NCBI RefSeq assembly: GCF_012034175.1
Contig: NZ_JAATEJ010000013.1
Span: 62,001-126,000, forward strand
DNA: 64,000 bases
From: Actinacidiphila epipremni
GTDB lineage: Bacteria > Actinomycetota > Actinomycetes > Streptomycetales > Streptomycetaceae
Direction: 5' to 3'
The first letter of the stretch is position 1. Every line of letters begins with the position of its first letter. A program made the translations under genes and the position numbers. Below the pieces are notes generated by a model, which worked only from the letters and a program-made list of their open reading frames with translations, ran no database searches and had not been told where the DNA came from. Of the stretch, positions 17,001 to 47,082 are shown piece after piece.

Positions 17001-20000
17001 TGGTCACCGGCGCGACCGGGGCGCTCGGCGGGCTCGTCGCCGAACATCTGGTCACCCGGCACGGCGTGCGGAACCTGCTGCTCACCAGTCGTCGCGGGCC
17101 GGAGGCACCCGGCGCAGCCGAACTCCTCGACCGGCTCCACGCGCTCGGCGCGCACGCCGAGTTGGCGGCCTGCGACGCCGCCGACCGGGACGCGCTCGGC
17201 GCGCTCCTCGGCGCCGTCCCCGCCGAACGCCCCCTGACCGGTGTCGTCCACGCGGCGGGCGTGCTGGACGACGGCCTGCTCACCGACCTCACCCCCGGCC
17301 GGCTGGCACATGTGCTGAGCGCCAAGGCCGACGCGGCGCAGCATCTGCACGAGTTGACGCGCGGCAGCGACCTCGCCGCTTTTGTGCTCTTCTCCTCCGT
17401 CGCCGGTGTCGCCGGGACCGCCGGGCAGGCCAACTACGCGGCAGCGAATGCCGCGTTGGACGCGCTGGCCGAGCACCGGCGCGGGCTCGGGCTGCCGGCG
17501 CGGTCGGTGGCGTGGGGGCTGTGGCAGGGCCTCGACGGCATGGGCGCGGAGCTGTCGGCGGCCCACCTGGCGCGGCTGCGGCGGACCGGTATCGCGCCGC
17601 TGCCCGCGGAGCAGGCGCTGCGCCACTTCGACGCGGCCCTCGGCGCCGATGGGCCCGCGGTGCTCGTCGCCTCGGCCTTCGACACCGCCGCGCTGTCCGC
17701 GGCGGACCCGGCGCCTCCTGCGCCGCTGCGCTCGCTGATGCGGGCCCGCCCGGTGCGGCGCACCGCCGCCGCGGCGGGAACGCGGCGGGAGGGCTCGTTC
17801 GCGGAGCGGCTGGCGGGGCTCGCCCGGCCCGAGGCGCGGCGGCTGGTGCTGGACCTGGTGCGGCGGACGGCCGCGACGGTGCTCGGCCACAGCGACGCGG
17901 GCGCGGTCGCGGACGGCCGCGCGTTCACCGACCTGGGCTTCGACTCGCTCGCCGCGGTCGACCTGCGCAACCGGCTCGGCGCGGCGACCGGCCTGCGGCT
18001 GCCGACCACGCTGGTCTTCGACCACCCGACGCCGGTGGCGCTCGCGGAGCAGCTGCTGGCCGAACTGCCCGCCGAACTCACCGCCGCCGAGGGCAAGTCG
18101 GTGGCCCCCGGCTCCGCCGCGGTCCCTCGTGACACGGACCCCATCGCGATCGTGGCGATGGCCTGCCGCTATCCGGGCGGGGTGCGCTCGCCCGAGGACC
18201 TGTGGCAGTTGGTGGCCGACGGGGTGGACGCGGTCTCGGAGTTCCCGGCCGACCGCGGCTGGGACCTGCGGACGCTGTACGACCCGGAGGGCGCGCGGAC
18301 GGGCAGTTCGTACACCCGCCACGGCGGATTCCTGCACGACGCCGCGGACTTCGACCCGGACTTCTTCGGGATGAGCCCGCGGGAGGCGCTCACGACCGAC
18401 CCGCAGCAGCGGCTGTTGCTGGAGACCGCGTGGGAAGCCTTCGAGCGGGCGGGGGTGGACCCGCACACGCTGCGGGGCTCGCGGACCGGAGTGTTCGCGG
18501 GCGTGATGTACAACGACTACGGGGCGCGGCTGCACCAGGGTGGGCAGGCCCCGGACGGCGTCGAGGGCTACCTGGTCAGCGGCAGCGCGGGCAGCGTGGC
18601 GTCCGGCCGGGTCGCGTACACCTTCGGTCTTGAGGGGCCCGCGGTCACCGTGGACACGGCGTGCTCGTCGTCGCTGGTGGCGCTGCATCTGGCGGCGCGG
18701 TCGCTGCGTGCCGGTGAGTGCGACCTGGCGCTCGCGGGCGGTGTCACGGTGATGGCGAGCCCGGCCACGTTCGTGGAGTTCAGCCGGCAGCGCGGGCTGT
18801 CCGCGGACGGCCGCTGCAAGCCGTTCGCGGCGGCGGCCGACGGCACCGGCTGGAGCGAGGGTGCCGGGCTGCTGCTCGTCGAGCGGCTGTCCGACGCCCG
18901 CCGCAACGGCCACGAAGTGCTGGCGCTGGTGCGGGGTTCCGCGGTCAACCAGGACGGCGCCTCGAACGGGCTGACCGCCCCCAACGGCCCTGCCCAGCAA
19001 CGGGTGATCCGCGCGGCGCTCGCCGACGCGGGGCTGGCGCCCGCCGACGTGGACGCCGTCGAGGCGCATGGCACCGGGACGACGCTCGGTGACCCGATCG
19101 AGGCGCAGGCGGTGCTCGCGACGTACGGCCAAGGCCGGCCTGCGGAGCGGCCGTTGCGGCTGCGGTCGGTGAAGTCGAACATCGGGCACACGCAGGCCGC
19201 GGCCGGCGTCGCGGGCGTCATCACGTCGGTGCTGGCGATGCGGCACGGTGTGCTGCCGCGCAGCCTGCATGTCGACGAGCCGACGCCGCACGTCGACTGG
19301 GCGGCGGGCGCGGTGGAGCTGCTGACGCAGCAGGCGCCGTGGCCGCAGGTGGACCGGCCGCGCCGGTCGGCGGTGTCGTCGTTCGGCATCAGCGGCACGA
19401 ACGCGCATGTGGTGCTGGAGCAGGGCGACTTCCCGGCAACCGCGGACGAGCGGGAGCCGGGGCGGCCGGTGGCCGATCCGGTGGTGGTGCTCGCCGCGCA
19501 CTCGGCGGAGGCGCTGCGTTCCCGGGCGGCCCAGCTGCGCTCCCTGGCCGAGTCCCGGCCCGAGCTGGACGCGGCGGCGCTGGCCCGTACGTCCGCCGGC
19601 CGGGCGGCGGCAGGGCTGGCCCACCGGGCGGCGATCGCGGCGGGCGCCGATGTCCCGGCGGTGGTACGGGCGTTGGCCGCCCTGGAGGACGGCGGTACGG
19701 CCCCCGGGCTGATCCGCGGAACCACTTCAGGGGCGGCGCCCCGGGTGGCCTTCCTCTTCACCGGGCAGGGCAGCCAGCGGCTCGGCATGGGGCACGAACT
19801 GTACGACTCCTACGGTGACTTCGCCGCCGCGTTCGACGAGGTGTGCGCGGCGCTCGACCCGCACCTGGACCGGCCGCTGCGGGACGTGGTCTTCGGCTCC
19901 CCCGGCGCGGAGCCGGTGCTGGACCGCACCGGCTACGCCCAACCGGCGCTCTTCGCACACCAGGTGGCGCTGCTGCGGCTCGCCGCCACGCGCGGGGTGC

Positions 20001-23000
20001 GGCCGGACGCGGTGCTCGGCCACTCGGTGGGTGCCATCGCGGCGGCGTACGCGGCGGGCGCGCTGACACTGCCGGACGCGGCCCGGCTGGTCGCCGCGCG
20101 CGGCCGGCTGATGCAGCAACTGCCGCCGGGCGGCGCGATGGTGGCACTGTCGGTCGGCGAGGACGAGGCGGCGGCGCTGCTGGCGGGCTACGCGGACCGG
20201 GCGGGCATCGCGGCGGTCAACGGGCCGCGGGCGACGGTGGTTTCGGGCGCCGAGGACGCGGTGCTCGCGGTGGCCGAGCGGGCCCGGGCGGAAGGCGCCC
20301 GCACCCGGCGGCTGACGGTCAGCCATGCCTTCCACTCGCCGCTGATGGAGCCGGTGCTCGCCGACTTCCGCGACGTCGTCGCGGGGATCGACGTCTCCGC
20401 GCCACGGCTGCCGTTCGTCTCCGACGTCACCGGCCGGATCGCGACCGCGGACGAACTGGCCTCCCCCGACTACTGGGTGCGGCACATCCGGCAGGCGGTG
20501 CGCTTCGCCGACGGGGTGCGGGCGCTGCACGAGGACGGCGTGGGCGCGTACGTCGAGATCGGGCCGGACGCGGTGCTCATGACGATGGCCGAGGAGACAC
20601 TGGCCGAAGTGGGCGCGTCCGCACCGCTGTTGCCGCTGCTGCGGCGCGACCGCCCGGAAGGCGCGGCCTTCTCCGCCGCGCTCGGCGGACTGTACGCGGC
20701 GGGCGCCGGCATCGACTGGCGGGCCCAGCACGGCGAGGGCGAGCGCGCGGACCTGCCCACGTACCCCTTCCAGCGCGAGCGCTACTGGCTCGACGCACCC
20801 GCGCCGCGCGGCGGCGGCATCGACGCGGTGGGCCTGGCGGACACCGGCCACCCGCTGCTCGGCGCGGCCGTCGAACTTGCCGGCGGCACCGGCACGGTCC
20901 ACACCGGGCGGCTCTCCCTGGCCGCGCACCCGTGGCTGGCCGACCACGCGGTCTCCGGTGCGGCGGTGCTGCCCGCGACGGCCGTGCTGGACCTGGCCCT
21001 GCACGCAGCCCGCCGCTCGGACGTGCCGGTGCTGCACGAACTGACCCTGCACGCGCCGCTGTTGCTGCCGGACCTCGGCTCGGTGCTGCTCCAGGTGACG
21101 GTGGACGGCCCGGGCGGCCCGGACGGCGACGGCCTGCGGACGGTGACCGTGCACGGCCGCGAGGACGGCGGCGAGTGGACGGTGCACGCGAGCGGTGTCG
21201 TGGGCCCCGAGGACGAGGCGGAGCCCGCGGCGGACGGTGGGGAGTGGCCGCCCGAGGGGGCCGAGGCCGTGCCGGTCGCGGACGCGTACGAGCGGCTGGC
21301 CGCGCTCGGTTACGCGTACGGGCCGGCCTTCCGCGGGCTGCGGGCCGCGTGGCGCGGGGCCGGCGGGGAGCACTACGCCGAGGTCGCGCTGCCGGCGGCC
21401 GGTGACGGTTTCCTGCTGCACCCGGCACTGCTGGACGCGGCGCTGCACCCGCTGGCGCTGGACGGCCCGGGGCCGGGCGGCGGGCTGCGGGTGCCGTTCG
21501 CCTGGCACGGCGTACGGCAGCACCGGGCGGCGGCGCACGGCCCGCTGCGGGTGCGGCTCACCCCGGTGCCGGACGGCGAGCAGGAGGCCGTGGCGCTGGA
21601 GGTGACGGACCAGGAGGGCACGCCCGTGCTGTCCGTCGCGGCCCTGGCGATCCGCGAGGCCGACCCGGCGCTGCCGGCGTCCGGCCGGCCGCTGCACCAC
21701 GTGGAGTGGACCCCGGTCACCGCGGACGCAGCGGCGCCCGCCCCCGCGTACGACGTGCTGCACATGGCGGAGGAGTGGGCGCACGACCCGCACGCGGCGG
21801 TCCTCGGCGTCCTGGCCGCGCTGCGGGAACGCATCGAGGACGAGTCGGCACAGACCCCGCTGGTCGTCCTGACCACGGGCGCGGTCGCCACGACGCCCGG
21901 CGAGCCCGTCGAGGCCCTGGGCCACGCCGCCGTCTGGGGCCTGGTCCGCACGGCCCAGACCGAACACCCCGGCCGCTTCGTCCTGGCCGACACCGACACC
22001 CCCACGGCCCCTGCCCTCCCCCCGGCCCTCACCACCGCCGAGCCCCAACTCGCGCTCCGCGCGGGGAGGGTGCTGGTCCCCCGGCTGACCCGGGTGCCCA
22101 CTCCCGCCGGCCCGACGCCCCTCGCCGGGCCCGGCTCTGCGACCAGTACCCCGGCGGAGACCAGCGCCCTCGGTGCGCTGCCCGCCGACGGCCCATCGCC
22201 CGTCACCATTACCCCGAGCACGGCGGCGACGGCCGCCCCCGACACCGCCCCGATGGCCGGTGACACGCCCGAGGCGCGCGACCCCGACGACACCCCGCCC
22301 GCCACCGGCGTCTTCGGTGACGGCACCGTGCTCGTCACCGGCGCCACCGGGGCGCTCGGCGGGCTCGTCGCCGAGCACCTGGTCACCCGGCACGGCGTGC
22401 GGAACCTGCTGCTCACCAGCCGCCGCGGGCCGGACGCACCCGGCGCCGCCGCACTCCTCGACCGGCTCCACGCGCTCGGCGCACACGCCGAGTTGGCCGC
22501 CTGCGACGCCGCCGACCGCGACACACTCGGCGCCCTGCTCCGCGGCATCCCCGCCGAACGCCCGCTCACCGGTGTCGTGCATGCCGCCGGGGTCACCCGG
22601 GACGCGACGCTGAGCTCGGTCGGGGAGGACGCGGTCGGCGAGGTGCTGCGGGCCAAGGCGGACGCCGCGTGGCTGCTGCATGAGCTCACCGCCGAATCCG
22701 CCCCCGGCATACGGGCGTTCGTGCTCTTCTCGTCCGTCGCCGGCCTGGTCGGCAACGCCGGGCAGGCGCCCTATGCCGCGGCGAACGCCTATCTCGACGC
22801 ACTGGCCGAGCACCGGCACGCGCGCGGGCTGCCCGCCGCCTCGCTCGCGTGGGGCCTGTGGCAGGCCGAGGACGGCATGGGCGGCGCCCTCAGCCCCGCG
22901 GACCTGGCCCGTATCGCCAGGACGGGCATCGCACCGCTGACCGTGGCGGACGGACTCGCCCTGTTCGACGCCGCGTTGGCCTCGGGGCTGCCGGTGACGG

Positions 23001-23683
23001 TGCCGGTGCAGCTGGAGACCGCGGCGCTGCGGGCGGCCGGCGACCCGGCGCGCGTACCGGTGCTGCTGCGCTCGCTGGTACGGCTTCCGCAGCCGGCCGC
23101 CGCACCGCAGGCCCGCACCGGACAAAGCCCGGCGGCAGCCGCGACGTTGCCGTGGCTGCGCAAGCTCGCCGAGGCCGCGCCGGCGGACCAGCCGCGGGTC
23201 GCGCTCGACCTGGTGCGCGGCACGATCGCCGAGGTGCTGCACCACGCCCCGAACCGCACCGTGCCCGCCGACCGCGGCCTGATGGACATCGGCTTCGACT
23301 CGCTCACCGCGGTGGAACTGCGCAACCGGCTCGGTGCCGAGACGGGCCTGCGGCTGCCCACCACCGTGCTGTTCGACCACCCCACGGCGAGCGCGCTCGC
23401 CGCGCACCTGCACGGCGAGCTGTCCGACCGGCTGCCCGGCGCGGCCTCCGCGGCGCTCGCGCACCTGACGGACCTGGAGGCCGCCGTCACCGGCGCCGAC
23501 CTCGACGAGGAGGACAGGGGCCGGCTCGCCGCCCGACTCGCGGCGGTACTGGGCCGGTTGAGCCCCGGCGCCCTGCCCGGCACCGTGCCGGGCGCCGCCC
23601 CCGCGCCCGGCACCGACCTGCTCACCGCCGCCTCCGACGACGAACTGTTCGACCTCATCGACGGCCAACTCGGCGCCGACTGA
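5003..23683 (+). CDS. Type I modular PKS, loading module plus extension modules 1-3
   Basis: A giant multidomain enzyme of about 6,226 residues that starts the polyketide and carries out the first three extensions. Domain order: KSQ-AT-ACP, then three times KS-AT-DH-KR-ACP. All four ATs carry the HAFH motif of malonyl-CoA selectivity, so the product is an acetate-primed conjugated triene. The ATG at 5003 is preferred because GAGGGAG lies upstream and the KSQ begins soon after; an in-frame ATG at 4967 would add 12 residues. The protein ends with a helical region and an acidic tail ([11 protein letters not shown]), a docking element of the kind that pairs with coiled-coil heads like that of the next PKS. 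Phosphopantetheine serines are at about residues 961, 2647, 4315 and 6100. The ordered gene set and predicted product resemble the first PKS of the abyssomicin (aby) pathway; the symbol is left blank because orthology was not tested. Confidence 0.97.
5060..8010 (+). other. PKS loading module: KSQ-AT(malonyl)-ACP
   Basis: The ketosynthase-like domain (about 5061-6300) has Gln instead of the active-site Cys: VDSAQSSS, with the CAG codon at 5537-5539 (residue 179). The two catalytic His motifs, ELHGTGT and KTNVGH, are retained. KSQ domains decarboxylate the bound malonyl group rather than condense. The AT (about 6706-7600) has GHSLGE with Ser657 and HAFH, the malonyl signature, so the starter is acetyl made by decarboxylation of malonyl-ACP. 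The ACP (about 7780-8010) has LGFDSL with Ser961. Confidence 0.93.
8065..13080 (+). other. PKS module 1: KS-AT(malonyl)-DH-KR-ACP
   Basis: The KS has VDTACSSS (Cys1194), EAHGTGT and KSNIGH, so it is active. The AT carries HAFH (about 10208-10219). The DH has an intact HxxxGxxxxP (His1921), GYAYGPAF and LLDAALH (Asp2082). The KR has TGATGGLG, an LDD motif (B-type), the lysine in LRPKAD, serine and QANYAAANA. All domains look functional, so this module leaves an alpha,beta double bond. The ACP serine is residue 2647. Confidence 0.93.
13120..18080 (+). other. PKS module 2: KS-AT(malonyl)-DH-KR-ACP
   Basis: KS Cys2880 sits in VDTACSSS. The AT has GHSLGE and HAFH and is nearly the same sequence as the loading and module-1 ATs. 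The DH has [18 protein letters not shown] and LLDAALH, all intact. The KR has [17 protein letters not shown] (B-type) and QANYAAANA. Predicted to form the second double bond. The ACP serine is residue 4315 (LGFDSL). Confidence 0.93.
18135..23440 (+). other. PKS module 3: KS-AT(malonyl)-DH-KR-ACP, KR with altered LDD
   Basis: KS Cys4554 is present. The usually conserved IKMV after the last catalytic His region reads ITSV. The AT is of a different lineage from ATs L, 1 and 2 (GHSVGA, long linker) but still HAFH, hence malonyl. DH motifs are intact ([25 protein letters not shown]). The KR keeps the NADPH motif, Lys, Ser and Tyr, but the LDD region reads T-R-D and the Tyr motif reads QAPYAAANA. 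It still lacks the tryptophan of A-type KRs. Third double bond expected. The ACP has IGFDSL with Ser6100. Confidence 0.9.
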
Positions 23684-23755: not shown

Positions 23756-26700
23756 ATGACGACGAACGAGGACCGGCTGCGCGACTACCTCAAGCGCGTG
23801 ACGAACGACCTGATGCAGACCCGGCAGCGCCTGTCGGACAGAGAGGCCGAGCGGCACGAGCCGATCGCGATCGTCGCCATGGCGTGCCGCTACCCAGGCG
23901 GGGTGCGCTCGCCCGAGGACCTGTGGCAGGTCGTCGCGTCCGGCACCGACGCCGTCTCCGCCTTCCCCGGCAACCGCGGCTGGGACACCGCGGGCCTGTA
24001 CGACCCGGACCCGGCGCGGACCGGCAAGTCGTACGCGCGCGAGGGCGGATTCCTGCACGACGCCGACGAGTTCGACCCGGCGTTCTTCGGCATCAGCCCA
24101 CGTGAGGCAGTCGCGATCGACCCGCAGCAGCGCCTGCTGCTGGAGACCGCGTGGGAGGTCTTCGAGCGCGCCGGCATCCCCGCCGAGACCGTCCGCGGCT
24201 CGCGCACCGGCGTCTTCGCCGGTGTGATGTACGGGGATTACGGCGGCCGGATCCGCAAGGCCCCCGAAGGGCTTGAGGGTTACATCGGCACCGGCAGCGC
24301 GGGCAGCGTCGCCTCGGGCCGGCTGTCCTACACCTTCGGCCTCGAAGGGCCCGCGGTCACCGTGGACACCGCGTGCTCGTCCTCGCTGGTGGCGCTGCAC
24401 CTGGCGATCCAGGCGCTGCGCGGCGGCGAGTGCGACCTGGCGCTGGCGGGCGGCGCGACGGTCATCGCCTCACCCGGCCTGTTCGTGGAGTTCAGCCGGC
24501 AGCGCGGCCTGTCGCCGGACGGCCGCTGCAAGGCCTTCGCGGCGACGGCCGACGGCACCGGCTGGGGCGAGGGCGCGGGCCTGATCCTGGTCGAGCGGCT
24601 GTCCGACGCCCGCCGCAACGGCCACCCGGTGCTGGCCGTCGTACGCGGCTCGGCGGTCAACCAGGACGGTACGAGCGGGCAGTTGTCGGCGCCCAACGGC
24701 CCCTCGCAGCAGCGGGTGATCCGCGCGGCGCTCGCCGACGCGGGGCTCACCCCGGCCGACATCGACGCGGTGGAGGCGCACGGCACCGGCACGACGCTGG
24801 GCGACCCGATCGAGGCGCAGGCGATCATCGCGACCTACGGGCGGGACCGCGCGGAGCCTTTGTGGTTGGGCTCGCTCAAGTCCAACATCGGGCACACACA
24901 GGCCGCGGCGGGGGTCGGCGGCATCATCAAGATGGTGCAGGGCATGCGGCACGGCCTGCTGCCGCGCACGCTACATGTGGACGAGCCGACGCCGCACGTC
25001 GACTGGTCCGAGGGCACGGTCCGGCTGCTCACCGACGAGCGGGAGTGGGCGACGCCGGAGGGCCGGCCGCGCCGCGCCGCCGTCTCCTCCTTCGGCATCA
25101 GCGGCACCAACGCGCACATCGTCCTCGAACAGGCCCTGGCGGGCGACGGGGAGGGCGCCGAGTCGGCGGAGGGCGCCGCGCCCACGGCCCCCGCCCCGTG
25201 GCTGCTCTCCGCGTCGTCGCAGGCCGCGCTGCGCGACCAGGCCCGGCGGCTGCACGCCTTCGTCGCGGCCCGCCCGGACCTGGTGCCCGCCGACGCCGCC
25301 CGTGTCCTCGCCGAGGGGCGCAGCCATCTGGAGCGGCGGGCGGTCGTGGTGGCCGACGACCGTGCCGAACTGCTGGCCGGGCTGGAGGACTTGGCCGAGG
25401 GGGTGCCCTCGGGCAACGTCGTCGAGGGCTCGGCGCGTGAGCACGGCAGGACGGTGTTCGTCTTCCCGGGGCAGGGCTCGCAGTGGGACGGCATGGCCCG
25501 CGAACTCCTCGCCACCTCACCGGTGTTCGCGAAGCACCTGACGCAGGCCGCCGAAGCCGTGGGTGAGTTCACCGACTGGGACCTGCTGGATGTGCTGAAC
25601 GGCGCACCGGACGCGCCGCCGCTGGACCGGGTCGATGTCATCCAACCCGCCCTGTTCGCCGTCATGGTGGCCCTCGCCCGGCTGTGGGAGCACCACGGCG
25701 TGCGGCCCGACACCGTCGTCGGCCACTCCCAGGGCGAGATCGCCGCCGCCCACATCGCCGGCGCCCTCAGCCTGCACGACGCCGCCAAGGTCGTCACCCT
25801 GCGCTCCCAGGCCATCCACGCCCACCTCGCCGGCACCGGCGGCATGGCCTCCATACCCCTGTCACCGGAGGAGCTGGCGCCGCGGCTCAGCGCCTACACC
25901 GACCTGCACATCGCGGCCCTCAACTCCCCGACGTCCACGGTCGTCGCGGGGGACGCGGCGCAGCTTCAGGAGTTCGTCGAGGCGTTGAACGGCCAGGACG
26001 TCCAGGCCCGTACGATCCCGGTCGACTACGCCTCGCACACCCCGCACGTGCACACCCTCAACGACACCCTGCACGACCAACTCGCGGACCTGGCGCCCGT
26101 CGCGTCGGCCGTCACCTTCCACTCGACCCTGCACAACGAGGCCCTCGACACCACGCAGCTCACCGCGGCGTACTGGTACGACAACCTCGCCAACCCCGTC
26201 CAACTCGCCCCGGCCGTCCGCGATCTCACCGAATCCGGGCACACCACTTTCGTCGAGATCAGCCCGCACCCGGTCCTCGTCCACGCGCTCACCGACACCA
26301 CGAGCGCTGCCGCGGCCCCCGTCCTCATCACCCCGACGCTGCGCCGGCACGACGGCACCCTGCACCGCTTCCACCTCAACCTCGCCGCCCTCACCGCCCA
26401 CGGCCGGCCCTCAGCCTGGGCCGCCCTGCTCCCCACCGCGGCAACTCCCCCGCACGACCTGCCCACTTACCCCTTCCAGCACCGCCGTTACTGGCTGGAG
26501 GACGCCGCGGGCGGCGGCGACCCGGAGAGCCTGGGCCTGCGTACCACCCGGCACCCGCTGCTGACGGCCGCGACGACGCTCGCCGAGGGCGACGCGCTGC
26601 TGCTCACCGGCCGGGTCTCGACCCGCACGCACCCGTGGCTCACCGACCACGCCCTGCACGACACGCCGCTGCTCCCCGGCACCGCGCATCTCGAACTCGC

Positions 26701-29700
26701 GCTGCACGCGGCGCAGTTGCTGGACGGCCTGCATGTCGAGTCGCTGGCGCTCGGCACCCCGCTCGCGCTGCCGCCCGGCGTGGCCCTGGACCTCCAGCTC
26801 ACGGTCGGGCCGCCGCGTGAGGACGGCCGCCGTGAACTCGCCCTGCACGCGCGGCCGGTCGACCAGGAGGCGGACGACGCCGACGAGGCCGCGCCGCTGC
26901 AACTCCCGTGGCTCCAGGCCGCGTCCGGCGTCCTCGCCCCCGCCTCCACCGCGCCGCCCGCCGAGCCGTCGCCGGCGGCCACGCCATGGCCCCCGCGCGA
27001 TGCCGTCGAGGCCGATCCCGCCGCGATACGTGACCGGCTCGCCGACCTCGGGCTCGCGCCCGGCCCGGTCTTCGACGGTCTGCGCAAGGTGTGGCAGCAC
27101 GGTGAGGCGGTGTACGCGGAGGTCGTGCTCCCGGAGCAGGACGCCGCGCAGGCCGGCCGCTTCGGCGTGCACCCGGCGCTGCTCGCCGCCGCCCTCCAGC
27201 CGGTGCTGGCCAGCGCGGGCGGCGTGGGCGGGGCCGTGCTGCTTCCCACCGCGTGGCAGGACGTCACGCTGCACGCCGTGGCCGCCACCGAGCTGCGGGT
27301 CGCCCTCACCCGTGAGGCGGAGGGGTACGCCCTGGCGGCGTACGACCCCGCGGGCGGGCCGGTGCTGACGGCTGCGGCGGTCGTGCTCGCCCCGGTGCCG
27401 GTCGGTGTCGCGCATGCCGTGTCCGGGGCGCGCCCGGACTGGCTCAGCGCCGTGGACTGGCCCGAACTGCCGTTGCCGCAGGGGGCGTCGGAGCCTGGCG
27501 CCTGGGCGGTGGTCGGCGGCGGGCTGCCCGGCGTCCAGGCAGCGCCCTACGCCACCGTCGAGGCCGTCCTCGACGCCCTCGCTCCGGCGGACGGCTCCGG
27601 CGCCGACCCGCGGCCCGACGAGGCCGCCGCGCCCGTACCCCCCTCCCACGTCGTGCTCGTCGCCCCCTCCGCCGCCGACGCCCTGCCGGCGTTGCGCGCC
27701 TGGCTCACCGACGCCCGGGCCACCGCCGCCCACCTCGTCGTCGTCACCCGGCACGCCGTCACCGCGGGGCCGGACGACGTGCAGGACCTGGCCCCCGCGC
27801 CGGTGTGGGGCCTGGTGCGGGCCGCGCAGTCGGAGCACCCGGGCCGGATCACGCTGGTGGACCTCGACGGCGAGGAGCGCTCGGCCGGCGCCCTGCCGGC
27901 GGTCGTCGCCTCGGGCGAGCCGCAGGCGGCGGTACGGGCCGGCGCCGCCCGGGTGCCGCGGCTGGTGCGGCAGACGCATGCGGACCTGCGCGACGGCGGC
28001 ACGGGCATCGCCGCGGACGGCACGGTGCTGGTGTCGGGCGGTGGGGACCTCACCGCCGCGGTCGCCGGCCACCTGGTGGCCGCACTCGGCGCCCGCCGCC
28101 TCGTACTTCTCGGCGCGGACGACGAACTCCCCGAGCAGCTGGCCGCGTTGGGTGCGGACGTGGTCGTTGCGGACGGTACGGCGGCGGATCGGGACGCGCT
28201 CGCCGCGGCGCTGGCCGCGCTGCCGGGTGGCCAGCGGCTCACCGACGTCGTCCATGTGGCCGCCGCCCAGCCCCGCGAGCTGGTGACGTCGCTGGAGCCG
28301 GACGCCTTCGCCGCGGCTCTCGGCACGGCCGCCGACGCGGCCTGGAATCTGCACGAGCTCACGCTGGGCGAGGAGTTGACGTCCTTCACCGTGCTGTCGC
28401 CGGAGCCGGCGGCGACGCTCGGCGGTACGGGCCGGGCGCTCGCGGCAGCCGTGGGCGCCCAGTTGGACGCGCTGGCCCACCACCGGCGGGCCCTCGGGCT
28501 GCCGGCGGTCTCCGTCGGGTGGGGCCCGCGCGCGGAGGCGGCCGACGACGCGGCTCGCGGCGGCGGCCTGGTGCGCTTCGCGGCGGGCCGCAGCGCCGAG
28601 TTGGCCGGGCTCGCCCTGCGCGCCGCCCGGCCCGCGCTGCTCGCCGCGCGGCTCGACCGCTCGGGCCTGGCCGCCGCCGCGGAGGCCGGGCTGCTGGCGC
28701 CGCCGCTGCGGTCGCTCGCCGGGACCGTACGCACCGCGGCCACGGGCGGTGCGGCGGCGGGCGGTTCGCTCGCCGCGACGCTCGCGGGCTTGCCGCGGCC
28801 CGAGCAGAACCGGGCGCTGCTGGACGTCATCCAGGCGCATGTCGCCGCCGTGCTCGGGCACTCCGACCAGGGCGCGGTCGAACCGGCCCGCGCCTTCAAG
28901 GAGTTGGGCTTCGACTCGCTCACCGCGGTCGAGCTGCGCAACCGGCTCGCCGCCGCGACCGGCCTGAAACTGCCCAGCACCCTGGTCTACGACCACCCGT
29001 CGCCGCGCGCCCTCACCGACTTCCTGCGCACCGAACTCCTCGGCGCCGCGGCCGAGTCGGCAGCCGGGGGCGTGACGCGCGGCGGCGGGTACGACGGGGA
29101 GCCGATCGCGATCGTCGCGATGGCCTGCCGCTACCCGGGCGGGGTGCGCACGCCCGAGGACCTGTGGCGGGTCGTCGCGGACGAGGCCGACGTCATCTCG
29201 CCCTTCCCCGGCAACCGCGGCTGGGACCTGGACCACCTCTTCGACCCCGACCCCGAGCACGCCGGCACCTCGTACGCGCGTGAGGGCGGCTTCGTGCACG
29301 ACGCGGACGGCTTCGACCCGGCGTTCTTCGGGATCAGCCCGCGCGAGGCCACCAGCATGGACCCGCAGCACCGGCTGCTGCTGCAGACCGCGTGGGAGGC
29401 CTTCGAGCGGGCCGGCATCGACCCGACGTCGCTGCACGGCTCGCGCACCGGCGTCTTCGCGGGCGTCGTCTACACCGACTACGGCTCGCGGGTGCGGCTG
29501 CCGGCCGACATGGAGGGCTATCTGGGATTCGGTGCCGCGGGCAGCATCGCCTCGGGCCGGATCGCCTACACGCTGGGGCTGGAGGGCCCGGCCGTGACCG
29601 TGGACACCGCGTGCTCGTCGTCGCTGGTGGCGCTGCACCTGGCGGTGCGGTCGCTGCGCAGCGGCGAGTGCGACCTGGCGCTCGCGGGCGGCGCGACGGT

Positions 29701-32700
29701 GCTCGCCCACCCCGACATCTTCGTCGGCTTCAGCCGGCAGCGCGGCCTCGCGCCGGACGCCCGCTGCAAGGCGTTCGCGGCGGGCGCCGACGGCACCGCC
29801 TTCGGTGAGGGCGTCGGGCTGCTGCTGGTCGAACGGCTGTCGGACGCCCGGCGCAACGGCCACCACGTGCTGGCCGTCGTGCGCGGCACCGCCACCAACC
29901 AGGACGGCGCCTCGAACGGCCTCACGGCCCCCAACGGCCCTGCCCAGCAACGGGTGATCCGTGCGGCGCTCGCCGACGCGGGGCTGACGCCCGCCGACGT
30001 GGACGCCGTCGAGGCACACGGCACCGGCACCACGCTCGGCGACCCCATCGAGGCGCAGGCCATCATCGCGACCTACGGGCAGGAGCGCGCGGAGCCTTTG
30101 TGGTTGGGCTCGCTGAAGTCCAACATCGGCCACACGCAGGCCGCCGCGGGCGTCGGCGGCATCATCAAAATGGTGCAGGCCATGCGCTATGGGCTGCTGC
30201 CGCGCACGCTGCATGTGGACGAGCCGACACCGCACGTCGACTGGTCGGCCGGCGCGGTGGAGTTGCTGACGCAGGCCCGGGAGTGGGCGCCGAACGGCCA
30301 TCCGCGGCGGGCCGCCGTCTCCGGCTTCGGGATGAGCGGGACGAACGCGCACGTCGTGATCGAGGAGGCGCCGCCGGCCGCGCAGGAGGAGGCGGCGGTG
30401 GCCGCGGACCCGGGCGCGGCGGACGCGGCCGTACCGCAACTGCCCGCGCCCTGGCTGCTGTCGGCGTCCACCGAGGCCGCGCTGCGGGACCAGGCGCGAC
30501 AGTTGCACGCCTACGTCCTCGCGCACCCGGAGCTGCGGCCGGCGGACGCCGCGCGCGTCCTCGCCGAGGGCCGTCCGCTGCTGCACCACCGGGCGGTCGC
30601 CGTCGCCGACGACCGTACGGAGCTGCTGGCGGCACTGGAGGCCCTGGCGGCGGGTGCGGAAAGCCCGGACGTGGTCCTGGGCACGCCGCGGGGATCGGCG
30701 GGGAAGACGGTGTTCGTCTTCCCGGGGCAGGGCTCGCAGTGGGACGGCATGGCCCGCGAACTCCTCGCCACGTCACCGGTGTTCGCCGACCATCTGACCC
30801 AGGCCGCCGAAGCCGTGGGGGAGTTCACCGACTGGGACCTGCTGGATGTGCTGAACGGCGCACCGGACGCGCCGCCGCTGGACCGGGTCGATGTCATCCA
30901 ACCCGCCCTGTTCGCCGTCATGGTGGCCCTCGCCCGGCTGTGGGAGCACCACGGCGTGCGGCCCGACACCGTCGTCGGCCACTCCCAGGGCGAGATCGCC
31001 GCCGCCCACATCGCCGGCGCCCTCAGCCTGCACGACGCCGCCAAGGTCGTCACCCTGCGCTCCCAGGCCATCCACGCCCACCTCGCCGGCACCGGCGGCA
31101 TGGCCTCCGTACCCCTCTCACCCGAAGACCTGCACTCCCGCCTGGACGCCTACACCGACCTGCACATCGCCGCCCTCAACTCCCCCACCTCCACCGTCGT
31201 CGCCGGGGATGCCGCCGAACTCCAGCACCTGGTCGAGACGTTGAACGGCCAGGACGTCCAGGCCCGCGCCATCCCGGTCGACTACGCCTCGCACACCCCG
31301 CACGTGCACACCCTCAAGGACACCCTGCACGACCAACTCACCGGCCTGGCGCCGGCCACCTCAGCCATCACCTTCCACTCCACCCTGCACAACGAGGCCC
31401 TCGACACCACCCGGCTCACCGCCGCCTACTGGTACGACAACCTCGCCAACCCCGTCCAACTCGCCCCTGCCCTCCAGGCGTTGGCCGAGACCGGGCACAC
31501 CACCTTCGTCGAGATCAGCCCGCACCCGGTCCTCGCCCACGCGCTCACCGACACCCTCGCCGACACCGGCACCGACGCGCTCATCGCCCCGACCCTGCGG
31601 CGCCACGACGGCACCCTGCACCGCTTCCACCTCAACCTCGCCCACCTCACCACCCGCGACCACCCCAGCACGTGGACGGCCGCGCTCCCCGCCGCCGCGA
31701 CTCCCCCGCACGATCTGCCGACCTACCCCTTCCAGAACCAGCGCTACTGGCTGGAGGGCCCGCCCGCGCAGGCGGACGCCGGCAGCCTGGGCCTGACCGC
31801 CGCGGACCACCCCTTCCTCACCGCCGTCACGACCCTCGCCGAGGGCGACACGCTGCTGCTCACCGGCCGCATCGCGCCCCGCACCCACCCCTGGCTCACC
31901 GACCACGCCCTCACCGGCACCCCGCTGCTCCCCGGCACCGCCCTGCTCGACCTCGCGCTGACCGCCGCCCAGGAAGCCGGCGGCCTCGCCGTCGAGGAGC
32001 TGACGTTGGAGGCCCCGCTGGTCTTCACGGCGGCCGGCGGTGTACGGGTGCAGGTCGCGGCCGAGGCGCCGGACGAGGCCGGGCGGCGGCGGGTCACCGT
32101 GCACTCCCGGCCCGACGACCCGGACGCGGAAGCGGACGAGTGGACCCGGCACGCGACCGGCGTGCTCGCCCCGGCTCCCGCCCCGGCGCAGGCGTCCGGG
32201 ACCGGCACGCCGTGGCCGCCCGCCGGCGCGGCACCGCTCGACACCGAGGACCTCTACGAGCGGCTGGCCGGGCTCGGTTACGCGTACGGGCCGGCGTTCC
32301 GCAACCTGACCGCCGCATGGCGCTCGGCGGACGGCGCAACGGTGTACGCGGAGGTGGAGCTGCCCGACGAACTGCACGCGGACGCGGCCCGGTTCGCCGT
32401 CCACCCGGCGCTGCTGGACTCCGCGCTGCACGCGCTGGCGCTCGGCGAATTCCTCGGCGAGGGCGTGCGGTTGCCGTTCGCCTGGTCCGGCGTGCGGCTG
32501 CACGCGGTGGGCGCGACGGCGCTGCGGGTGTCGGTCGCGCGCGGTCCGGCGCAGGACACGGTGGCGGTTGCCGTCGCCGACCCCGAGGGCGCGGACGTGC
32601 TGGAGGCGCGGGAGCTGACACTGCGGCCGGTCCCGCAGGACCAGTTGCCCACCCGTCCGGCCCACCCCTCCGCCGGGGACGCGCTGTTCGCCCTGGAGTG

Positions 32701-35542
32701 GACACCGCTGCCCCAACCGGCCGCCACCGACGAGCCGTTGCCGCCGTACGCGCTGCTCGACACGGGTGACGCGGCGGCTCTCGACCCGGAGGTGCTGGGC
32801 ACGCCGGTACGGGCCGGCGACGCGGTGCTGGACCTGCTGTCCTGGCGCGGCGGCGAGTCGGAGGCCGACGTCCCGGAGGCCGTCGAGGAGGGCGTACGGG
32901 CGCTGCTCGCCCGGCTCCAGGGCTGGCTCGCGGCCGACGACCGGCCGTACGCGCGGCTCGTGGTCCTCACCGAGCGGGCGGTCGCGGTGCGGCCGGGCGA
33001 CCCGGTGGACCTCGCGGCGGCCCCCGCGTGGGGCGTGCTGCGCAGCGCCGCGACCGAGAACCCGGGCCGGGTCGCCGTCGTGGACTGGGACGGCACGCCC
33101 GCCTCGCTGCGGGCGCTGCCCGCGGTCCTGGCCACCGCGGAGCCGCAGGCGGCGCTGCGGGACGGCGCCGGATACGTACCGCGGCTGGCCGCCGCCGCGG
33201 TGCCGGCGGAGCTGCCGCTGCCCGCGGACGGTGCGGCCTGGCGCCTGGAGACGCCCGGCGGTTCGCCGGACGACCTGCGGGCCGCGCCGCACCCGGCGGC
33301 CGAAGCGCCGCTCCGGGCGGGCGAGGTGCGCCTCGCGGTACGGGCCGCGGGGCTCAACTTCCGTGACGTGCTGACCGTGTTGGGCATCGTGCCGGTGGGC
33401 GCGCCGCTGGGCACGGAGGCGGCGGGCACGGTCCTGGAGACCGGCCCGGGCGTCAGCGGACTCGCCGTCGGCGACCGGGTGTTCGGGCTGGTGCCCGGGG
33501 CGGTCGGCCCGGTGGCCGTCGCCGACCGGCGGCTGCTCGCGCGTATCCCCGACGGCTGGTCGTACGCGCGGGCCGCGGGAGTCCCGGCGGTCTTCGCCAC
33601 CGCCTACCACGGACTGGTGGAGCTCGCGGGCCTGCGCGCCGGGGAGCGCGTGCTGATCCACGCCGCCACCGGCGGGGTCGGCCTCGCCGCGCTGCAACTG
33701 GCCCGGCATGTGGGCGCGGAAGTCTACGCCACGGCGAGCCCCGGCAAGTGGGGCGTGCTGCGGGCGGCGGGCCTGCCGGCCGAGCGGATCGCCAACTCCC
33801 GTGACACCGGCTTCGAGCCGGCCTTCGACGGGGCGACCGGCGGTGCGGGCGTGGACGTCGTCCTGAACTCCCTGACGGGCGAGTTCATCGACGCCTCGCT
33901 GCGACTGCTGCCGCGCGGCGGCCGGTTCGTCGAGATGGGCATCGCCGACCTGCGCGACGCCGCCGAGATCGCCGCGCGGCATCCGGGCGTCGCCTACCAG
34001 CCGTTCGAACTCCTCGACATGGATCCGGAGACCGTCGGCCGCTCGTTGGCGGCGGTGCTGGACCTCTTCGAGCGGGGTGTCCTGGAACCGCTGCCGGTCA
34101 CGACCTGGGACGTACGCCAAGCGCCCGCCGCCTTCCGGCACTTCGCCCAGGCGCGGCACATCGGCAAGAACGTGCTGACGCTGCCGGCGTATCGGCCGGC
34201 GGCTGACGAGCCCGGCGCCGGCGGCTTCGGGCCGCACGGCACCGTGCTCATCACCGGCGGCACCGGCACCCTCGGCTCGTCGCTCGCGCGGCATCTGGTC
34301 GCGGTGCGCGGGGTGCGGCAACTGCTGCTCACCGGGCGGCGCGGGGCCGACGCTCCGGGCGCGGCGGAACTCGCCGCGGAGCTGGCGGAGTTGGGCGCGG
34401 ATGTACGGATCGCGGCGTGCGACGTCGCCGACCGGGCCGCGCTCGCGCGGCTGCTGGCGTCGATCCCGGCGGAGCAGCCGCTGACGTCGGTGATCCACGC
34501 GGCGGGCGTCCTCGACGACGGCGTGCTGGGCTCGCTCACCGGTGAGAAGGTCACCGCGGTGCTGCGGCCGAAGGCGACCGCGGCCTGGCACCTGCACGAG
34601 CTGACCCGCGGCCACGACCTCGCGCACTTCGTCCTCTTCTCCTCCATGTCGGGGCTGCTCGGCGGCGCGGGCCAGGCCAACTATGCGGCGGCGAACGTCT
34701 TCCTGGACGCCCTCGCCGCCCACCGCCGCGCCGAGGGCCTGCCCGTGACCTCGCTCGCGTGGGGCATGTGGGCCGACGCGAGCGGCATGACGGGGCACCT
34801 GGACGCCACGGACCTGGCCCGTATCGCGCGCGGCGGGCTCGCCCCGATGTCCTTCGAGGACGGCTGGGCCCTCTTCGAGGCCGCGCTCGCCACCGGTCTG
34901 CCCGCCGCGGCCCCGGCGCAACTGGACCGGGCGGCGCTGCGGGCCCGCGCGGGGTCCGGCGACCTGCCGGCGGTGCTGCGCTCGCTGGTCAAGGCGCCCG
35001 CGGTGCGCCGCGCGGCGGCCGGCGGCCGGGCGGGCGGCGGCGAAGGCGGCCGTTCGCTCGCGGAGCGGCTGGCGGCCCTGCGCGAACCCGAGCGCGAGCC
35101 GCTGCTGCTGGCGCTGGTACGCGACCAGGTCGCGGCGGTGCTCGGGCACGGCCGGGGCGACGACATCGCGCCCGAACGGGCCTTCAAGGAGATCGGGTTC
35201 GACTCGCTGACCTCCGTCGAGCTGCGCAACCGGCTCGGCACGGCCAGCGGGCTCAGGCTGCCGACGACGCTGGCCTTCGACTTCCCGACCCCCGCGGCGC
35301 TCGCCGGTCACCTGCTCGGCCTGCTGGTCCCGGAGGCCGACCCGGTGGCCGAACTCGACCGGCTGCTCGCGTCCGTGACCGCGGAGCACGCCGAACTGCC
35401 CGCGCTGCGGGAGAGGTTGCGGGCCGCGCTGCGGCAGTGGGAGTCGGCGACCGGGCCGGCCCCGCAAGAGGAGGAGGACCTGGCGGCGGCGACCGACGAG
35501 GAGCTGTTCCGCGCGCTGGACGAGGAGTTGGACGCGCAGTGA
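23756..35542 (+). CDS. Type I modular PKS, extension modules 4-5
   Basis: A 3,928-residue PKS that adds two propionate units. It opens with a coiled-coil docking head ([11 protein letters not shown]...) and ends with a helical, acidic docking tail ([14 protein letters not shown]). Module 4 is KS-AT-DH*-KR*-ACP with both reductive domains inactivated; module 5 is KS-AT-DH-ER-KR-ACP with all domains intact. Both ATs have GHSQGE and the YASH motif, the signature for methylmalonyl-CoA. The start ATG at 23756 follows AAGGAGAG. Carrier-protein serines are at about residues 1721 and 3817. The gap from PKS1 is only 72 bp, so the genes are probably cotranscribed. The two AT domains share a 288-bp identical block, a sign of recent gene conversion or duplication. 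Confidence 0.97.
23860..29045 (+). other. PKS module 4: KS-AT(methylmalonyl)-DH(inactive)-KR(inactive)-ACP
   Basis: KS Cys207 is intact, though the NQDG loop reads [10 protein letters not shown] instead of the usual [10 protein letters not shown]. The AT has YASH (about 26026-26037). The DH keeps its His but the motif reads [10 protein letters not shown] (Gly to Asp). The Gly-Tyr motif is degraded to LGLAPGPVF, and the catalytic Asp is Ala (LLAAALQ, codon 27185-27187, residue 1144). The KR has lost its nucleotide motif (SGGGDLTA, about 28034-28057), its lysine (LGTAAD in place of LRPKAD), and the Tyr and Asn ([11 protein letters not shown]). The beta-ketone should therefore be kept, with an adjacent methyl. 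Confidence 0.93.
29095..35330 (+). other. PKS module 5: KS-AT(methylmalonyl)-DH-ER-KR-ACP
   Basis: KS Cys1953 is intact. The AT is nearly a copy of the module-4 AT (GHSQGE, YASH). The DH has [18 protein letters not shown] and LLDSALH. The ER (about 33220-34190) has the LNFRDVL segment and the NADPH motif [13 protein letters not shown]. Its methyl-stereocontrol position reads G-I-V-P, that is Val rather than Tyr. The KR has [17 protein letters not shown] and QANYAAANV. Full reduction to CH2 with a methyl branch is expected. The ACP serine is residue 3817. Confidence 0.93.
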
Positions 35543-35559: not shown

Positions 35560-35640
35560 GAGCCGCGGATGCGGCGTACGGGACGGTGTGTGGAGCGGCG
35601 TGCGGGACGGCGTATGGGACGGCGTATGGAGCGTTCAGGA
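35560..35640 (+). repeat. Short tandem repeats in the PKS2-PKS3 spacer
   Basis: The 115-bp gap between the second and third PKS genes contains several tandem copies of a GGGACGGCGTATGG-like unit. Nothing gene-like is seen; a GGGAGAGGGAG ribosome site sits at its right end, just before the PKS3 ATG. Confidence 0.5.
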
Positions 35641-35657
35641 CGTTCGGGAGAGGGAGC

Positions 35658-38600
35658 ATGAACAACGAGGACAGGCTGCGCGACTACCTCAAGCGCGCCA
35701 CCGCGGATCTGCGCCAGGCCCGGCGCCGCATCCGCGAGTTGGAGGACCGGGAGCACGAGCCGATCGCGATCGTGGCGGCCGGCTGCCGCTTCCCCGGCGG
35801 GGTCGACTCGCCGGACGCGCTGTGGCGCCTCGTCGCCGGCGGCGTGGACGCGGTCGGCGGCCTGCCCGACGACCGCGGCTGGGACCTGGACGCGCTCTAC
35901 GACCCGGACCCGGACACCCCCGGCACCGCCTACACGCGCGAGGGCGGCTACCTGCACGACGCGGCCGGCTTCGACGCGGCCTTCTTCGGCATGGGCCCGA
36001 GGGAGGCGGTGGCCGCCGACCCGCAGCACCGGCAGCTGCTGGAGGTGGCGTGGGAGACGTTCGAGCGCGCCGGCATCGCGCCGGGCGGTTTGCGCGGCAG
36101 CCGTACGGGGGTCTTCGCGGGCGTCGTGTCGCAGGCGTACGTGCCGCCGCCGGACCGCGTACCGGACGGCTACGAGGGCCACTTGATGACCGGCAACGCC
36201 ACGAGCGTGGCCTCCGGCCGGATCGCCTACCACCTGGGTCTTGAGGGCCCGGCGGTCACGCTGGACACGGCGTGCTCGTCCGCGCTGGTCGCGATGCACC
36301 TGGCCGCGCAGTCGCTGCGCCGCGGGGAGTGCGACCTGGCGCTCGCGGGCGGCGTGACGGTCATGGCGACGCCTGTGCTGCTGGTGGAGTTCAGCCGGCA
36401 GCGCGGCCTGTCGCCCGACGGCCGCTGCAAGGCGTTCTCGGCGGCGGCCGACGGCACCGGCTTCTCCGAAGGCGTCGGGCTGGTGCTGCTGGAGCGGCTG
36501 TCCGACGCGCGCCGGGCCGGCCGTACGGTGCTGGCCGTGCTGCGCGGCTCCGCGATCAACCAGGACGGCGCGTCCAATGGCCTGACGGCCCCCAACGGCC
36601 CCGCCCAGGAGCGGGTCATCCGCGCCGCCCTCGACGACGCGCGGCTGCATCCGCACGACGTCGACGCCGTCGAGGCGCACGGCACCGGCACGGTGCTCGG
36701 CGACCCGATCGAGGCGCAGGCGCTGCTCGCCGCGTACGGCGCGGGCCGCCCTGCGGACCGGCCGCTGCGGCTCGGCTCGGTGAAGTCGAACATCGGCCAC
36801 ACGCAGGCCGCGGCGGGCGCGGCGGGCGTGATCAAGATGGTCCACGCGCTGCGCCACGGCCTGCTCCCCCGCACCCTGCACGTCGGCGAGCCGACGCCGC
36901 ACGTGGACTGGGAGCGCGGCGGCGTCGAGCTGCTGACCTCGGACGTGCCGTGGCCGGCGACCCCGGACCGGCCGCGGCGCGCGGGCGTGTCGTCCTTCGG
37001 CATCAGCGGCACGAACGCCCACGTGATTTTGGAGGAGGCCCCGGCGGAGCCCGTTGCCTCCGGCACGAAGCCGGGCACGCCGGCCGCCGGGGCAACGCTC
37101 GCGGGGGCCGCCGACGCAGGGGCCGCGCCCGCGCAGGCGTCGGCTGGGGAGCCGGACGCCGCGGCTGCGGACTCCGTGCCCGGGCGGGCCGCCTCCGCCA
37201 GCTCCGAGTTCACCCCGGCCTCCGTGGAGGCCACCACCGGCGCCGAAGACGCCTCCGCCGTATGGCCGTTGTCCGCCCGGACGGAAAGCGCCCTGCGGGC
37301 GCAGGCCGGGCGGCTGCTCGAACGGCTCGCGGGTGAGCCGGAGTTGGACGCCGTGGGCGTCGGGCGGACGCTGGCGCTCGGGCGGACGGCGTTCGCGCAC
37401 CGGGCGGTCGTGCTGCCCGGCGGGCGGGACGCGCGGCTGGCCGCGCTCGGGGCGCTCGCCGCCGGGCGGGCGTCGCGGCACGCGGTGCGCGGGACGGCGG
37501 GCGGGCGGGTGCCCGTGGCCTTCCTGTTCACCGGGCAGGGCAGCCAGTACCCCGGCATGGCAGCCGACGCCGCAGCCGCGTACCCGCTCTTCCGTACCGC
37601 GCTGGACGAGGTGTGCGACGCCTTCGCCCCGCACCTCGAACGGCCCCTGCGCGAGCTGCTGTTCGCCGCCCCGGGCAGCGCGGAGGCCGAGGCGCTGGAC
37701 CGCACGGCTTATGCGCAGCCCGCGCTCTTCGCGGTCGAGGCCGCCCTCCACCGGCTGCTGACCCACCTGCTGGGCGCGCCCGAGCATGTCGCCGGCCACT
37801 CGCTGGGCGGAGTGAGCGCGGCCTATGCGGCGGGCGTGTTCTCGCTGGAGGACGCCGTACGGCTGGTCGCCGCGCGCGGGCGGCTGATGCAGGCGCAGCC
37901 CCAGGGCGGCGCGATGCTCGCGTGCGAGGCGTCCGAGGACGAGGTCGCCGCCGTGCTCGCCGGCATCGAGGGCGCGTTGGCGGTCGCGGCGGTCAACGGG
38001 CCGCGGGCCACCGTGGTTTCGGGCGACGCGGCAGCCGTCGAGGCGGTCGGTGCCGTCTTCGCCGGGCGTGGCCGGCGCACCAAGCGGCTGCGGGTCAGCC
38101 ACGCCTTCCACTCCCCGCACATGGACGGCGCGGTCGAGCCCTTCCGTGCGGTGGTGGCCGGCCTGACCTTCCACCCGCCCGCGCTCGGCCTGGTCTCGGA
38201 CGTGACGGGCGCACCGCTGACGTACGAAGAGCTGCGCGAACCTGGCTACTGGGCACGGCAGTTGACGTCGCCGGTACGGTTCGCCGACGCCATGGGCACC
38301 CTGCACGCGGCGGGCGTACGGGCGTATGTGGAGGTCGGCCCGGACGCGGTGCTGACGTCGATGGTGCCGGGCGTGCTGCCGGACGAGGAGCCGGTCGCGG
38401 TGCCCGCCCTGGTACGGGACCGGCCGGCGCGCGAGTCGCTGGCCGCGCTCGTGGCACGGCTGCACACGGTGGGCGCGCCGGTGCGCTGGGACGCCTGGTA
38501 CGACACCGGCGGCACCGGCCCGCTGCCGCCCGCGGACCTGCCGACATACCCCTTCGAGCACACCCGCCACTGGTGGACCGGTGTGGACGTCCCCGCGGGG

Positions 38601-40232: not shown

Positions 40233-40343
40233 GAAGGCCCCCTCGCCCACCCGGCATTGGTGACGAGCATGATGAGCAGCCCCGGTAAAGCCGCGCTAAA
40301 TCCGGCCGCGGACCCGCTCGCGGTCACCGTGCGTGACACTTCT

Positions 40344-40393: not shown

Positions 40394-40428
40394 AGGGAAT
40401 CGGAGCGCTCACGGCCGATATTCGAAGC

Positions 40429-46919: not shown

Positions 46920-47018
46920 GGCGCTGCTGCTCCAGGTGTGCTGCGGGGTGGGCGACAGTCCACTGTACGGGTCCTGCGCCCGCCCCCCGAACCGCGAGCC
47001 CGGCCCGCGGAGCCGTAG

Positions 47019-47060: not shown

Positions 47061-47082
47061 GCCTCCGGAAAGCGAGCAGCGC

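Follow-up and report, generated by a model that had tools for sequence, protein, structure and literature searches.

The second polyketide synthase (PKS) gene in a stretch of Actinacidiphila epipremni DNA (contig NZ_JAATEJ010000013.1, positions 62,001 to 126,000; 64,000 nucleotides, referred to here as the window) raises the question of what an extension module delivers when both of its reductive domains, a dehydratase (DH) and a ketoreductase (KR), are present in the reading frame and residues needed for their catalysis have been replaced. The module concerned is the fourth extension module (module 4), or the fifth when the loading module is counted, and its two domains are called here DH4 and KR4. 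Our analysis indicates that it is very probably the non-reducing fourth extension module of an abyssomicin synthase of the aby type, in which the β-ketone is left unreduced and gives rise to the C7 ketone.

In the mechanism that we propose, the ketosynthase (KS) and the acyltransferase (AT) of the module, KS4 and AT4, would extend the triene chain by a methylmalonyl unit; KR4 would be unable to bind or use NADPH, DH4 would lack its catalytic aspartate, and the new β-ketone would be handed unreduced to KS5, to become the C7 ketone of the enone. A dead reductive loop of this kind would explain the C7 ketone that underlies the antibacterial enone of the abyssomicins, whose Michael acceptor, at C7-C9, is described in a review as essential for antimicrobial activity (PMC6100094). 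That the dead domains fix this ketone had been proposed in an earlier note, made from the DNA letters and the translated reading frames; the proposal stands, by colinearity and by the published aby module.

Catalytic residues of the module 4 dehydratase and ketoreductase

The catalytic motifs of DH4 and KR4 have been compared with those of modules 1-3 and 5 of the same clusters, whose domains have been taken as active on motif grounds. The His-Asp dyad of active PKS dehydratases is incomplete in DH4: the catalytic histidine is present as His965, while the aspartate of the HPALLD motif is replaced by Ala1144; both residues occur in all 37 control DHs. The GYxYGP motif has been degraded to GLAPGP, the histidine of DxxxH is Gln1148, and the glycine of HxxxGxxxxP is Asp969. 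DH4 spans 322 amino acids (aa), against 317 aa for the DH of module 5, and its Pfam PS-DH score is 62 bits, against 90.7.

The damage to KR4 includes deleted residues as well as substitutions. All four residues of the Ser-Tyr-Lys-Asn tetrad of reducing PKS ketoreductases are replaced (by Glu1550, Ala1563, Ala1525 and Gly1567, respectively), and all four are found in 36 of the 36 control KRs. The TGxxGxxG loop that binds NADPH is not intact either, as KR4 reads SGG-GDLT against TGGTGTLG: some glycines stay, a residue is missing, and threonine takes the place of the final glycine. Relative to the KRs of modules 1-3 and 5, KR4 lacks this P-loop residue, seven columns that include the Arg-Arg pair of the NADPH loop, and, in the lid, 12 aligned columns, which are partly offset by two residues inserted nearby. 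In active ketoreductases, the Arg-Arg pair contacts the NADPH phosphate. The Pfam KR score falls to 92.4 bits, compared with 210.2 for the KR of module 5. By its residues, KR4 fits the C1 class, for which neither reduction nor epimerisation would be expected.

The alignment with active domains, suggested in the earlier note as a check, has borne out the catalytic losses that the note had listed, i.e. the DH aspartate replaced by alanine, the degraded Gly-Tyr motif, and the missing Lys, Tyr and Asn of the KR. Two of its statements hold in part: the nucleotide-binding glycines, given as lost, are partly kept, with one residue deleted and the last glycine substituted; and the full length attributed to both domains applies to the DH, not to the KR core, which has gaps at the P-loop, the Arg-Arg loop and the lid.

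Module 4 in related clusters

Our comparison with related clusters starts from the AbyU-type [4+2] cyclase: a scan of a collection of 84,980 species has returned 23 cyclase loci, giving, together with the window, 24 AbyU-bearing genomes. Comparison of the DH4-KR4 segment of the window with those 23 genomes, scoring at most the best 47 candidates in each, has located module 4 in 13 of them, and a KR4 profile applied to 11 of the 23 has added one more, in Frankia sp. EI5c; module 4 has been read in 15 of the 24 genomes, belonging to Streptomyces, Herbidospora, Acrocarpospora, Frankia and the window's own species. The sequence from Streptomyces sp. or43 does not include the beginning of the DH, and the DH histidine is therefore not readable there.

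The lesions of the ketoreductase are shared by all 15 clusters, while those of the dehydratase vary between lineages. The P-loop deletion, the loss of the Arg-Arg loop and one inserted residue ahead of the catalytic serine column are common to all 15 KRs, as is the lid gap, except that two of its twelve columns each hold a residue in one sequence. The substituted residues themselves differ: Ala (11), Gly (3) or Ser (1) in the lysine column; Arg (8), Ala (5), Ser (1) or Gly (1) in the tyrosine column; Gly (13) or Ser (2) in the asparagine column; and Asp (10), His (4) or Glu (1) in the serine column.

In the dehydratases, the catalytic aspartate is replaced by Thr in 11 of the 15 and by Ala in one, that of the window, and is kept in three, those of S. 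fragilis, S. flaveolus and S. regalis. In these three the catalytic histidine is Arg, the end of HxxxGxxxxP is missing, and two of the three also lack most of GYxYGP, which we read as a different way of dying. Every module 4 DH that was read misses at least one residue of the His-Asp dyad, and the second tyrosine of GYxY and the histidine of DxxxH are gone in all 15.

In the remaining nine AbyU-bearing genomes module 4 was not found, and the best match to the KR profile was a KR with intact motifs in each of the nine. Assembly breaks hide the module in four of them: the AbyU contigs of two Micromonospora stop at the first extension KS, and the contigs of Streptomyces sp. ISL-36 and S. poriferorum that have a module 5-like KR carry nothing but all or part of module 5 and the last module. 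For Herbidospora yilanensis, H. galbida, two Frankia and Parafrankia, which make up the remaining five, module 4 may be absent, concealed or different in kind.

Within its own genus the cluster may be patchy, since the KR4 profile, applied to 35 genomes with an E-value threshold of 1e-60 and the best 89 candidates per genome, matched only the window's own genome; transfer is possible. Two weaker searches, limited to the best 7 candidates per genome, covered 394 family genomes (threshold E 1e-60) and 396 phylum genomes (threshold E 1e-56), and each again matched only the own genome. A KR as divergent as that of Frankia, which scored 2.0e-58, would escape a threshold of 1e-60. Searches for AbyU homologs gave 4 matches, 2 of them strong, in 160 genomes of the genus Micromonospora, and 7 matches in the 394 family genomes, where the strong one was that of the own genome only.

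Origin of the loss

In maximum-likelihood trees, the 15 module 4 KRs lie on one side of a branch with 100/100 support, and so do the 15 module 4 DHs. The loss of the KR is most simply read as a single event in the common ancestor of the clusters examined; separate deaths of the KR in each lineage are disfavoured by the shared deletions and insertion and by the placement of the 15 KRs behind that branch. Instead of a local decay, the loss of the KR looks like one set of deletions, old and common to 15 of 15. The DH may also have been crippled early, because the second tyrosine of GYxY and the histidine of DxxxH are lost throughout.

Modules 4 and 5 join against modules 1-3 with support of 98/91 for the KR and 97/94 for the DH, and five KRs from outside these clusters, included in the KR tree, all fall on the side of modules 1-3. 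This grouping agrees with a duplication of modules 4 and 5, after which the earlier note had placed the decay, and falls short of proof, because the trees are unrooted, have been drawn with midpoint rooting, and carry long-branch flags on module 4 of Frankia, of the window and on others.

In the window, AT4 and AT5 (near 26018-26044 and 31274-31300) share 88% identity, compared with 100% in Streptomyces sp. A0642, and the DNA alignment of modules 4 and 5 of the window holds one block of 150 identical columns, which points to gene conversion. KR2 and KR3 of the window and of Acrocarpospora cluster by genome and not by module, a further sign of concerted evolution.

Substrate of module 4 and the acceptor ketosynthase

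The AT4 motif is YASH in all 11 clusters where AT4 has been read, the window included (four of the 15 are unread); the motif is read as methylmalonyl-specific, so that the product of module 4 would carry an α-methyl group.

The next ketosynthase, KS5, differs from its neighbours in its gatekeeping loop. In PikKS3, a VMYH loop aids the selection of α,β-unsaturated chains, with the methionine lying against the double bond (PMC11321453). By alignment, KS2-KS4 of the clusters read, which are expected to take enoyl chains, have methionine at the second loop position in 29 of 29 cases, while KS5 reads VVYT in 10 of 10, with valine in place of the methionine; KS6, which is expected to take a saturated chain, reads VVSQ in 7 of 8 (the S. 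fragilis sequence gave no match). The chain that enters KS5 is probably not an enoyl, since VVYT lacks the enoyl-selecting methionine. The motif does not separate a ketone from a hydroxyl or a saturated chain, as KS6 has valine at the same position, and to call VVYT a "ketone gate" is our own interpretation. A change from VMYx to VVYT at the following KS might help to predict unprocessed chains in other clusters.

It is conceivable that the ketone of module 4 is reduced after all, by an enzyme acting in trans or by KR5 of the same protein reaching back; abyssomicins B and I do bear a C7 hydroxyl (PMC6100094). The same review derives this hydroxyl from the C7 ketone by a reduction that removes the Michael acceptor, and the biosynthetic model of the aby cluster holds both the DH and the KR of the module inactive (PMC3625739). 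The KS5 loop speaks against an enoyl and not against a hydroxyl. We regard such a rescue as the most improbable of the alternatives considered.

Selection on the inactive domains

The ratio of non-synonymous to synonymous substitution rates (dN/dS) has been estimated by the Nei-Gojobori method with 1000 codon bootstraps, the genes being GC-rich. For KR4 it is 0.246 (0.171-0.340) in four Streptomyces, 0.240 (0.154-0.338) in four Herbidospora and 0.268 (0.198-0.365) in the three strains of the fragilis group, while the intact KRs give 0.157-0.257 in Streptomyces and 0.237-0.351 in Herbidospora (two strains). For DH4 the corresponding values are 0.341, 0.318 and 0.354, and for the intact DHs 0.244-0.319 in Streptomyces and 0.329-0.417 in Herbidospora (two strains). 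The bootstrap intervals of the dead domains overlap with those of the intact ones and stay far under 1. The structural part of the module 4 KR has a ratio of 0.187 in the four Streptomyces, compared with 0.351-0.454 for its counterparts, and of 0.531 in the fragilis group. Among 75 columns that are conserved in intact KRs, 37 are unchanged in 14 or more of the 15 dead KRs, 3 have become fixed for a new residue and 35 are variable.

These values bear on the possibility that DH4 and KR4 are plain pseudodomains, drifting neutrally and kept only by the open reading frame. Such drift would account for the lesion residues that vary by lineage (Ala, Gly or Ser for the lysine; Arg, Ala, Ser or Gly for the tyrosine), for the motif loops lost from the DH of the S. 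fragilis group, for the lower conservation of KR4 at depth and for the high ratio of the KR structural part in that group; it is disfavoured by the dN/dS intervals and by the 37 unchanged positions, and we consider it highly unlikely. The constraint on the two domains is judged to be real and somewhat looser at depth.

Predicted structures

AlphaFold2 models have been built on alignments of 14 sequences. The DH4 model has a predicted local distance difference test score (pLDDT) of 82.3 and a predicted template modelling score (pTM) of 0.83, and adopts the PKS dehydratase fold, with the dehydratase 6obv as its best match (template modelling scores 0.79/0.89). In the KR4 model, blocks of the Rossmann core mostly exceed a pLDDT of 80, while confidence is low around residues 311-320 and in the tail beyond about 350. 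Superposed on the rifamycin module 1 KR, this model gives Z 31.6 over 342 residues at 3.5 Å; the values for KR1 of the 6-deoxyerythronolide B synthase (DEBS; 2fr1) and for the C2-type pikromycin KR (3qp9) are Z 26.9 and Z 26.8. Apart from the deleted loops, both folds look intact in the models.

The last of these superpositions is relevant to a second activity that KR4 could have, i.e. that of a C2-type ketoreductase epimerising the α-methyl derived from AT4, as do the KR3 domains of DEBS and pikromycin. The module does carry an α-methyl by its YASH motif, the model aligns with 3qp9 and the domain is under selection; the score for 3qp9 is, however, no higher than those for ordinary reducing KRs, and the tyrosine and serine that have been implicated in epimerase activity (PMC5331325) are gone in 15 of 15. 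We have rejected KR4 as an epimerase on account of these two absent residues, and attach very little probability to it.

The dead domains are retained and not rotting, because their dN/dS among close relatives resembles that of the neighbouring intact domains and their models fold normally. Retention for structure, which the earlier note had offered as a possibility, is likely from these ratios (0.24-0.27 for the KR and 0.32-0.35 for the DH) and from the predicted folds; we infer that the domains are kept for their fold, i.e. for spacing, contacts and the path of the acyl carrier protein (ACP), and not for chemistry. More specifically, KR4 might have become a conserved non-catalytic part of the synthase, its ancestral loss being followed by selection as a scaffold, either for the geometry of the module or for guiding the β-keto chain from ACP4 to a re-tuned KS5; we put this forward tentatively, as a proposal less probable than not. 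If true, the dead loop paired with a matching gate downstream would amount to a natural unit for making unreduced α-methyl ketones. As the KR deletions are shared from Frankia to Streptomyces and the domains are under selection, the retention of dead domains becomes testable in a short assembly line.

Several points weigh against the assignment of module 4 as an unreduced module with retained domains. The placement of the ketone at C7 is made by colinearity, the catalytic histidine is retained in DH4, and the model of the KR4 region is of middling confidence (pLDDT 70.6, pTM 0.71). In the four Streptomyces, the dN/dS of DH4 is the highest of five DHs and that of KR4 exceeds three of the four intact KRs; in the eight most diverse strains, KR4 reaches 0.463 against 0.241-0.371 for the intact KRs, and DH4, at 0.485 against 0.399-0.477, evolves slightly faster than the intact DHs. 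The estimates come from the Nei-Gojobori method on GC-rich genes, with Herbidospora controls of two strains, and part of the constraint may be mere avoidance of misfolding, as both domains lie in one reading frame.

The gene cluster

The source genome is 8.2 Mb in size, and the window is part of one of its contigs. Three collinear PKS genes are found in the list of open reading frames (ORFs; 4931-23683, 23756-35542 and 35586-38888), and their Pfam domains follow the aby-type layout: a loading module and three DH-KR modules, four AT motifs being found in this first gene; module 4 with the DH-enoylreductase (ER)-KR module; and a minimal module. By Pfam and profile-based boundaries, the second gene reads KS-AT-DH-KR-ACP for module 4, with the dead DH and KR, and KS-AT-DH-ER-KR-ACP for module 5. 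The AT pattern is also that of aby, with YASH (methylmalonyl) in AT4 and AT5 and HAFH (malonyl) in the remaining five ATs. The coordinates of the features are collected in Table 1.

Table 1. Module 4, its neighbours and the control motifs, in window coordinates.
Feature	Position	Strand	Basis
Second PKS gene, AbyB2-like, 3928 aa	23756..35542	+	ORF, Pfam, ortholog comparison
KS4 gatekeeping loop VMYG	24224-24244		
Further KS gatekeeping loops, KS2-KS4 comparison	13490-13516, 18503-18529		
AT4 motif YASH, read as methylmalonyl-specific	26018..26044	+	Motif meaning per PMC5819245
Inactive dehydratase DH4, module 4	26498..27475	+	Pfam PKS_DH_N 84.3 bits, PS-DH 62 bits; AlphaFold2 model
Catalytic His965 of DH4, kept	26648..26650	+	
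GLAPGP, degraded form of GYxYGP	27050..27067	+	
Ala1144 replacing the DH catalytic Asp of HPALLD	27185..27187	+	
DH-KR linker and KR structural subdomain	27476..28003	+	Domain boundaries, model
Inactive KR4 catalytic subdomain, module 4	28004..28651	+	Pfam KR, residue table
SGGGDLT, broken NADPH P-loop, one residue deleted	28034..28054	+	
Ala1525 replacing the KR Lys	28328..28330	+	
Glu1550 in the KR catalytic Ser column, beside the shared one-residue insertion	28403..28405	+	
Ala1563 replacing the KR catalytic Tyr	28442..28444	+	
Gly1567 replacing the KR Asn	28454..28456	+	
VVYT loop of KS5, acceptor of the module 4 product	29465..29485	+	Motif background PMC11321453
Module 5 DH, motifs intact, control	31766..32716	+	
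Module 5 KR, motifs intact, control	34223..34861	+	

The contig also carries, upstream of the window, the AbyU-type cyclase gene (46728-47135 of the contig). Its product scores 142.2 bits with Pfam AOC_like and matches 5dyv, which is deposited as "YD repeat-containing protein" and which we take to be AbyU, with E 1.1e-60, while its match to AbmU is much weaker (E 4.3e-15). We assign the cluster as abyssomicin-type and aby-like, since the cyclase matches 5dyv far better than AbmU. Putative tetronate genes, KASIII-like and FkbH-like by their translations, adjoin the cyclase upstream of the window, and further upstream genes have been named from their translations as acyltransferase, flavin reductase, TetR, MFS and luciferase-like.

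Two cytochrome P450 genes and one ferredoxin gene flank the PKS genes (135-2372, 2530-2772 and 38997-40250), as expected for abyssomicin tailoring. An ORF of 221 aa with coding-like composition (40333-40998, + strand) sits between a P450 gene and a histidine kinase gene; it matched nothing in Pfam or NCBIfam at E 0.001.

Comparison with known systems

Inactivity of the reductive domains in this module has already been published for two relatives, as likely for both domains in aby and for the KR in abm; the authors of both papers number the loading module as module 1. In the 2011 aby paper, DH1 and KR1 of AbyB2 module 5, from the atrop-abyssomicin C synthase of Verrucosispora maris, are described as "likely to be inactive" and the residues are given (PMC3625739); in the 2018 neoabyssomicin paper, the KR of AbmB2 module 5, from Streptomyces koyangensis, is described as inactive and the DH as "unclear" (PMC5819245). 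The review cited above attributes the hydroxyl at C7 in abyssomicins B and I to reduction of the C7 ketone (PMC6100094). As far as its main text goes, a genome-mining survey of abyssomicin clusters (PMC7176366) does not contain the terms "module", "domains", "inactive" or "ketoreductase"; the shared KR deletions, the selection result and the KS5 motif did not occur in the passages of the abyssomicin literature consulted, and may be published already.

Module 4 resembles AbyB2 module 5 in its position, its domain order and the propionate type of both ATs of the gene; the substitutions differ, being His to Leu, Asp to Thr, Lys to Ile and Tyr to Val in aby (PMC3625739), while here the His is kept and Asp, Lys and Tyr are all replaced by Ala. 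AbmB2 module 5 is alike in its position and in a KR without the NADPH motif, the lysine and the tyrosine, and differs in that these residues have become Glu and Phe, respectively; the methylmalonyl ATs of abm are in modules 2 and 5 (PMC5819245), whereas here they are in both modules of the second gene. With the C1-type ketoreductases, KR4 shares the lack, by its residues, of reductase and epimerase function and a retained structural subdomain (PMC5331325), and adds to their point changes the shared deletions at the cofactor site and the lid. The closest solved structure to KR4 is that of the rifamycin module 1 KR (PDB 9pat and 9pc6, E 5.3e-49, fold Z 31.6), which retains all four of Lys, Ser, Tyr and Asn where aligned and looks catalytically competent. 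To these systems our analysis adds a KR loss that is common to 15 clusters and, most simply, old, two dead domains that are still under selection, and a predicted gate in KS5 that differs from those of the neighbouring ketosynthases.

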